Positions 11,282 through 12,299 of a DNA stretch of 64,000 bases are shown here, piece after piece. The notes beneath the pieces were generated by a model that had not been told where the DNA came from, made no database searches, and was given only the letters and a program-made list of their open reading frames with translations. The position numbers and the translations under genes are program-made. Every line of letters starts with the position of its first letter. Positions within the stretch are counted from its first letter, which is position 1. The DNA is taken from assembly GCF_039655875.1 (NCBI RefSeq), contig NZ_JBBYXK010000003.1:248001-312000 (forward strand), in the 5' to 3' direction. This DNA is from Emcibacter sp. SYSU 3D8 (GTDB lineage: Bacteria > Pseudomonadota > Alphaproteobacteria > SMXS01).

Positions 11282-11424
11282 AATCGGCGCCTGATTTGCG
11301 GAAAATTTTAACTAATTGGTTTCGAAGCAACAAATCTTAACCATAATTCGGCCATTTTTACCCGGATTGTACTTGAACGAACAGGCTGTACCCTCCTTAA
11401 TAGAGGTGTAGAAGTTCGTTAACT

Positions 11425-11533
11425 CCTCGAAACGGCAAACCATCAGGAATGATGGGACGCAAAGCCACCGGCCCGACATCGGATATTCCGCGACTCTGGG
11501 ATGACCGAAAGGGTAGCGGGGTTTCCGAAAGGG
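11425..11533 (+). promoter_or_regulatory. Cyclic-di-GMP-I (GEMM-I) riboswitch
   Basis: The leader carries the hallmark blocks in order: GGCAAACC (11434-11441), then a P2 hairpin CCATCA-GGAA-TGATGG (11440-11455) capped by a GNRA tetraloop, then GACGCAAAGCC (11455-11465), CCGGCC, and GGTAGCGGGGTT (11512-11523), the tetraloop-receptor/P3 strand. This is the class I c-di-GMP aptamer layout. The likely Shine-Dalgarno (AAAGGG, 11528-11533) sits at the 3' edge, 7 nt before the ATG at 11541, so control of translation initiation is plausible. I cannot say whether ligand turns expression on or off. It controls the LapG-like protease gene. Confidence 0.92.
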
Positions 11534-11540
11534 CCAACAT

Positions 11541-12299
11541 ATGTCTACCCAGCCTTCTGGCCGCTTGCGGTCGTGGCTTGGCCTGACCGCTGCGTCGATT
11601 GCTGCGGTCATGCTCCTCTCCTCTCCCGCGTCCGCCGCGGAGGGGCAGCCCACCTTTACCATCGCCGACCGGATGAATATCGCCGCCGACCCGCTCACCG
11701 AAGCGTTTGGCGCCCGCGTGGTCATGCCGCTCGATGTCAAGAATGCGACCCGCTGGGCAGACGTGCTGCGCCGCCAGGAGCAGGCCATGGCAGCACCGGC
11801 GGCCTGCGATGACCCGTCGGCCGACCATTGCTTCGCCACTTTCTGGACCGAGACCGTCGCCGAACTGAAGACCCTGCCGCTCGACGAAAGGGTCCGCCGC
11901 GTCAACGACCTGGTCAACGAGATGGGCTATTGGTCCGATTGGGACGTCTATCGCAAGGCCGATTACTGGGCGACCCCCGCGGAAATGTTCGAGAAGATGG
12001 GCGGCGATTGCGAAGACTTCGCCCTGTTCAAGTATTTCCTGCTGCGCGCCTCGGGCGTATCCGCCGAGGATCTGCGCATGACCCTGGTCGCGTCCGACGA
12101 CCGGGCGCACATGGTGTCGCTTGTCCTGGTGGACGGCGCCCCGCTGGTGCTGGATTGCATTGCGCTGCAGACCGCCGCGCCGAGCGAGTTGCGCCAATAT
12201 CAGGCGGTCTATTCGCTTAGCGAAACCGGCGCCTGGTTCCTGGCGGCGGCCGACCAGCCGGCCGGTGTCGCCACGGCCATGGCCGATCTGGGGCGCTGA
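11541..12299 (+). CDS. Periplasmic transglutaminase-like cysteine protease (BTLCP, LapG-like)
   Basis: 252 residues with a Sec signal peptide (hydrophobic stretch ~12-30, cleavage near SPASAA). The catalytic triad of the BTLCP family is visible: Cys157 in GGDCEDFALFK, His190 in DRAHMVS and Asp205 in LVLDCI. The best-known member, Pseudomonas LapG, cleaves the N-terminus of the biofilm adhesin LapA and is held inactive by the c-di-GMP receptor LapD. Here no LapD or giant adhesin gene is adjacent, but a c-di-GMP riboswitch sits in the leader, placing the gene under the same second messenger at RNA level. The substrate is inferred, not shown. Confidence 0.9.
   Translation: MSTQPSGRLRSWLGLTAASIAAVMLLSSPASAAEGQPTFTIADRMNIAADPLTEAFGARVVMPLDVKNATRWADVLRRQEQAMAAPAACDDPSADHCFATFWTETVAELKTLPLDERVRRVNDLVNEMGYWSDWDVYRKADYWATPAEMFEKMGGDCEDFALFKYFLLRASGVSAEDLRMTLVASDDRAHMVSLVLVDGAPLVLDCIALQTAAPSELRQYQAVYSLSETGAWFLAAADQPAGVATAMADLGR

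Follow-up and report, generated by a model that had tools for sequence, protein, structure and literature searches.

A c-di-GMP-I riboswitch directly precedes an exported BTLCP protease gene in a little-studied alphaproteobacterial order and probably controls its translation

In the textbook view, c-di-GMP signaling acts on LapG-type proteases through a membrane receptor that sequesters the enzyme. The Caulobacter protein HvyA (CCNA_00166) is an exported BTLCP that prevents capsulation. Its abundance is set by transcription (CtrA activation, MucR) and also by translation, through a factor left unidentified in that study, and its authors expect other targets in other genomic contexts (PMC4241560). 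Among GEMM-I riboswitches, Vc2 is described as a translational OFF switch that depends chiefly on the stability of P1; its residue G20 is a selectivity factor for c-di-GMP over cGAMP, and the class includes both ON and OFF switches (PMC9262584). Here, we describe a GEMM-I aptamer that adjoins a BTLCP gene in a 64-kb window (the whole stretch of DNA that was analyzed). We give a probability of roughly 60% to the reading that a translational c-di-GMP-I riboswitch sets the amount of this exported protease, that it is OFF at high c-di-GMP through P1 and the Shine-Dalgarno sequence, and that the protease acts on an envelope substrate. The host belongs to an order of little-studied alphaproteobacteria, sampled here as one family with 10 genomes in three genera (below, G, C and L numbers denote genomes, contigs and loci).

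A cmscan of the whole window against Rfam identifies the aptamer as the single structured RNA above threshold. The match to RF01051 spans model positions 1-87 of 87 without truncation and scores 64.0 bits (gathering score 35, E = 3.3e-10); this is the one GEMM-I copy in the 4.07-Mb genome. The earlier note had read the leader as GEMM-I with a GNRA tetraloop on P2 and a Shine-Dalgarno sequence at the 3' edge, and each of these elements is recovered: the covariance model agrees, GGAA caps the CCAUCA/UGAUGG stem, and AGGG follows directly on the last aptamer nucleotide (Table 1). The equivalents of Vc2 residues G20, A47 and C92 are G, A and C (11434, 11461 and 11525), and they are invariant across 10 family aptamers. 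The helices of these 10 sequences contain five pairs with both sides changed, and CCGAAAGG at the Shine-Dalgarno sequence is unchanged in 10 of 10. An A at position 20 is the mark of cGAMP-variant GEMM-I riboswitches, and that assignment is ruled out by the G at 11434.

Table 1. Features of the riboswitch-protease locus, in window coordinates
Feature	Position	Strand	Basis
Conserved element ACAAATCTTAACCAT with TTAACCAT at 11337-11344; likely a promoter or a site for a regulator	11330..11344	+	Column conservation; TCTTAAC counts
c-di-GMP-I (GEMM-I) riboswitch aptamer	11424..11529	+	Rfam RF01051, 64 bits
UCCU, 5' strand of outer P1 helix, complementary to Shine-Dalgarno	11424..11427	+	Fixed-register pairing test; sequence
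G equivalent to Vc2 G20, position of selectivity for c-di-GMP over cGAMP	11434	+	Invariant G in 10 family aptamers
P2 hairpin CCAUCA-GGAA-UGAUGG with GNRA tetraloop	11440..11455	+	cmscan alignment; covarying pairs
Shine-Dalgarno AGGG, doubling as 3' strand of outer P1 helix	11530..11533	+	7 nt before ATG 11541
Exported C93/BTLCP cysteine protease, 252 aa, triad C157/H190/D205	11541..12299	+	PF06035; LapG structures

The downstream ORF matches Pfam PF06035 (Peptidase_C93/BTLCP) with 52.7 bits against a cut-off of 27. Its closest solved structure by sequence is Legionella LapG (4fgo, 2e-20), and LapG is also the top fold match of the AlphaFold model (pLDDT 74, Foldseek 6.9e-12). Residues Cys157, His190 and Asp205 occupy the LapG triad positions in the alignment and do not vary among eight homologues, which confirms the BTLCP protease with intact triad described in the earlier note. 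The N-terminus reads as signal-peptide-like. The same genome encodes a second BTLCP (L003, G000:C1:321122) that has Cys, His and Asp motifs and no riboswitch; it lies on a distant branch of the protein tree, with paralogues in G004-G007.

No terminator was found in the leader, and the 11 nt between the aptamer and the start codon leave no room for one. This short gap and the missing terminator make translational control the most likely mode. In Geomonas GEMM-I riboswitches, the outer P1 helix occurs in a fixed register, with the 5' strand just before CGA and the 3' strand just after CCGAA, and none of 5000 shuffles reaches the observed pairing. When alphaproteobacterial GEMM-I sequences are placed in the same register, the 3' strand of P1 is the Shine-Dalgarno sequence; 27 of 5000 shuffles reach the observed pairing, a modest excess in a kind of test that related sequences inflate. 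The window aptamer makes all four outer pairs: beyond the CGG/CCG pairs, UCCU (11424-11427) pairs with AGGG (11530-11533). Four family members make only one or two of the four, and within the family set the shuffle test does not discriminate because the strands are nearly invariant. A looser duplex and covariation test of the 5' flank against the Shine-Dalgarno sequence gives no excess over shuffles, and thermodynamic folding does not separate Shine-Dalgarno accessibility between states.

The identity of the Shine-Dalgarno sequence with the 3' strand of P1 favors translational OFF control, and c-di-GMP probably hides the Shine-Dalgarno sequence when it is abundant. Ligand binding would stabilize P1 (UCCU with AGGG) and bury the ribosome-binding site, such that little protease is made at high c-di-GMP and synthesis begins when c-di-GMP falls. 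The protease would then act on some envelope substrate. Control would lie in how much of the enzyme is present, as with HvyA in Caulobacter, since no LapD was found that could keep the protease inactive.

The opposite sign, in which the 5' strand of P3 (GGCCC) or another part of the leader hides the Shine-Dalgarno sequence until c-di-GMP frees it and the protease rises, is possible but unlikely. The unconstrained, unliganded minimum-energy fold of the window does pair GGCCC of P3 with GGGCC at the Shine-Dalgarno sequence, and both signs occur among known GEMM-I members (PMC9262584). However, GGGCC is retained in the window, G007 and G005 only; G004 has GGGTC, and the motif is absent from the other members. 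Moreover, constrained aptamer folds of the window do not free the Shine-Dalgarno sequence, and its complementarity to P1 is general in alphaproteobacterial GEMM-I.

Upstream of the aptamer lies a conserved element. In nine of 11 loci (window, L004, L005, L006, L008, L009, L010, L011 and L012), non-syntenic ones included, an element resembling ACAAWTCTTAAC precedes the aptamer by 47-94 nt. The 200-nt stretches before the 11 riboswitch or scar loci contain 11 copies of its core TCTTAAC, spread over nine of the loci; the background of 185,678 nt, taken from these loci and the window, contains none. In G002 and G001 the element is doubled at a spacing of 30 nt, and it also stands upstream of the G001 GEMM-I site that has no protease (L004). 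The motif TTAACCAT occurs once in the window and bears what we take to be a resemblance to a CtrA half-site. No sigma-70-like promoter was found upstream of the window aptamer. The distribution of the ACAAWTCTTAAC element suggests a shared promoter, possibly a CtrA-like or promoter site, and its conservation makes it likely that the transcript starts upstream of the aptamer.

This element bears on what the protease may do. It could act as HvyA does, limiting capsule or surface polysaccharide while cells are motile and low in c-di-GMP, with the riboswitch confining it to that phase. HvyA is likewise an alphaproteobacterial BTLCP, CtrA-activated and controlled in abundance at both levels (PMC4241560). 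The window protease has the identical Trp-14-Cys spacing, and its aptamer is preceded by TTAACCAT. We regard such a role as tentative. No capsule export gene was identified adjoining the window protease. The HvyA paper itself foresees different targets in different contexts (PMC4241560).

A second assignment, less probable still, makes the protease a genuine LapG and the circuit a shortened Lap system, in which the enzyme cleaves a LapA-like RTX adhesin and the riboswitch replaces LapD. Among solved structures, LapG comes closest in both sequence and fold, the triad is intact, and c-di-GMP control would be compatible. The protein nevertheless scores 98.9 bits against the NCBIfam LapG equivalog NF045674, below its cut-off of 320, and in a 75-protein tree it falls outside the clade of LapG-type proteases from LapD-bearing genomes. 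None of the 10 family genomes has a match to LapD (PF16448), for which the earlier note had proposed a search together with LapA-like adhesins; five of six control genomes do. The LapA retention module (NF033682) has no match in these 10 either and two in the Pseudomonas control. No LapB-type exporter (TIGR03375) exceeds the cut-off in any of the nine family genomes searched, with three in the Pseudomonas control, and there is no adhesin gene among the annotated neighbors of the protease in the window, G001 and G009. Given the missing LapD, LapA module and LapB exporter and the score of 98.9 against 320 bits, the protein is, as judged by these profile searches, a LapG-like protease without Lap partners. 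The label "LapG-like" therefore holds for family, fold and triad and fails for LapG proper. The biofilm-dispersal circuit of the earlier note is not supported as written, both for want of these partners and because the abundance-controlled relative HvyA prevents capsulation.

GEMM-I is present in nine of the 10 family genomes, at 11 sites. Eight of the 11 directly precede a BTLCP gene with an intact triad (window, G002, G004 twice, G005, G007, G001 and G009), and the pairing is present in all three sampled genera. Two genomes show decay. In G008 (L007, C50), an intact aptamer precedes a protease remnant that comprises the last ~33 residues, the Asp end only. In G003 (L011/L216, C8), the protease gene is deleted between conserved flanks (76-78% identity); the leftover aptamer scores 32 bits, below threshold, and its Shine-Dalgarno sequence is gone. 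G001 has a second GEMM-I (L004, C35:282115-282203) that precedes a ~47-aa ORF and an AAA ATPase gene, with no protease. The neighbors of the pair are a PAS histidine kinase and an OmpR-type response regulator in the window, TetR/AcrAB and hydantoinase genes in G001, and GST and thioesterase genes in G009. Because the neighbors differ between genera, the conserved unit is the aptamer with the protease and not the neighborhood. Across the genomes compared, riboswitch and protease are thus conserved as a unit, with joint decay in G003 and G008.

GEMM-I often regulates motility genes, but a synteny accident, in which the aptamer controls something else and merely precedes the protease gene, is highly improbable and is rejected on the varied neighborhoods and on the decay of the aptamer once the gene is lost, with only 11 nt separating aptamer and ATG and an additional case in a deltaproteobacterium. 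With the riboswitch directly on the gene and the two kept as a unit, control of protease amount by c-di-GMP, as the earlier note proposed, is supported as probable.

Two of the family records deserve comment. In G009 (L010, C136, 31583 on), the signal-peptide-like sequence past the aptamer is out of frame with the protease domain, which suggests a frameshift or an assembly error. The record CALQFM020000027.1 (L025), titled Candidatus Kuenenia stuttgartiensis, is probably mislabelled: its contig corresponds to G005, an alphaproteobacterium of the same genus as the window genome, with the same riboswitch score.

Outside the family, GEMM-I occurs in 33 of 385 other alphaproteobacterial genomes, and none of the ~45 alphaproteobacterial sites checked has a BTLCP gene behind it. 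Wide occurrence of the pairing in the class is rejected on this count. Nearly all of these aptamers (L105-L149) have a Shine-Dalgarno sequence at the 3' edge (CCGAAAGGAG), and several lie, by eye, upstream of flagellin-like genes or ParA/CpaE-like starts. A survey from the protease side covered the 80 BTLCP loci most similar to the query, drawn from one-per-species genomes. An aptamer accompanies the gene in two family members and in one deltaproteobacterial MAG, and wide occurrence among BTLCPs is likewise rejected, these three being the only cases among the 80. In the MAG (L087, G396:C110, JAJRSM010000090.1), a GEMM-I of 55.4 bits lies ~90 nt before an intact-triad BTLCP gene, and a separate strong, long hairpin covers the Shine-Dalgarno sequence, which points to an expression platform unlike that of the family. 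The protease occurs in 28 of 395 genomes of that phylum, with a riboswitch match at the locus of that MAG only. On the 75-protein tree, the riboswitch label requires three changes. A single clade of family members is compatible with the data (AU p = 0.51). One that includes the deltaproteobacterium, and with it a single origin for all riboswitch-protease pairs, is disfavored, not firmly enough to be rejected (p = 0.054).

No paper in the literature searched reports a LapG- or HvyA-type protease under a c-di-GMP riboswitch, an absence that is not proof. GEMM-I and BTLCP are both parts of known kinds; their arrangement appears new. We rate slightly above even the chance that c-di-GMP control has moved from the LapD receptor to the protease mRNA, as a portable unit fixed in an order that lacks LapD and LapA, with a separate origin in at least one deltaproteobacterium. 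The messenger apparently acts on the amount of a related enzyme in a lineage without the LapD receptor. If so, the link from signal to protease can be rebuilt at a different level, which would explain how some BTLCPs are controlled without LapD and would offer a simple test of BTLCP function in alphaproteobacteria. The unidentified translational factor of HvyA makes direct control of that relative by the messenger worth testing.

Compared with HvyA, the window protease is also an exported alphaproteobacterial BTLCP of similar size, with the same Trp-14-Cys spacing (W143/C157 versus W178/C192 in HvyA), and HvyA is abundance-controlled, including at translation. The two differ in that no riboswitch has been described for HvyA, and that HvyA lies in a capsule export locus while the window gene apparently does not. 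With Pseudomonas and Legionella LapG, the window protein shares the C93 fold, the Cys-His-Asp triad and the DCED motif around the Cys. Unlike the LapG/LapD/LapA system, the locus misses the LapG equivalog cut-off and is without a detected LapD, LapA retention module or LapB exporter; c-di-GMP is the likely controlling signal in both, exerted here, we infer, on the mRNA and there through sequestration by LapD. The aptamer itself resembles Vibrio cholerae Vc2 (RF01051) in its covariance-model match, its P2 GNRA loop and P3 receptor arm, its G20, A47 and C92 equivalents and a P1 that adjoins the Shine-Dalgarno sequence. It differs from Vc2 in regulating, on our reading, an envelope protease and in its extended P3 loop of ~39 nt.
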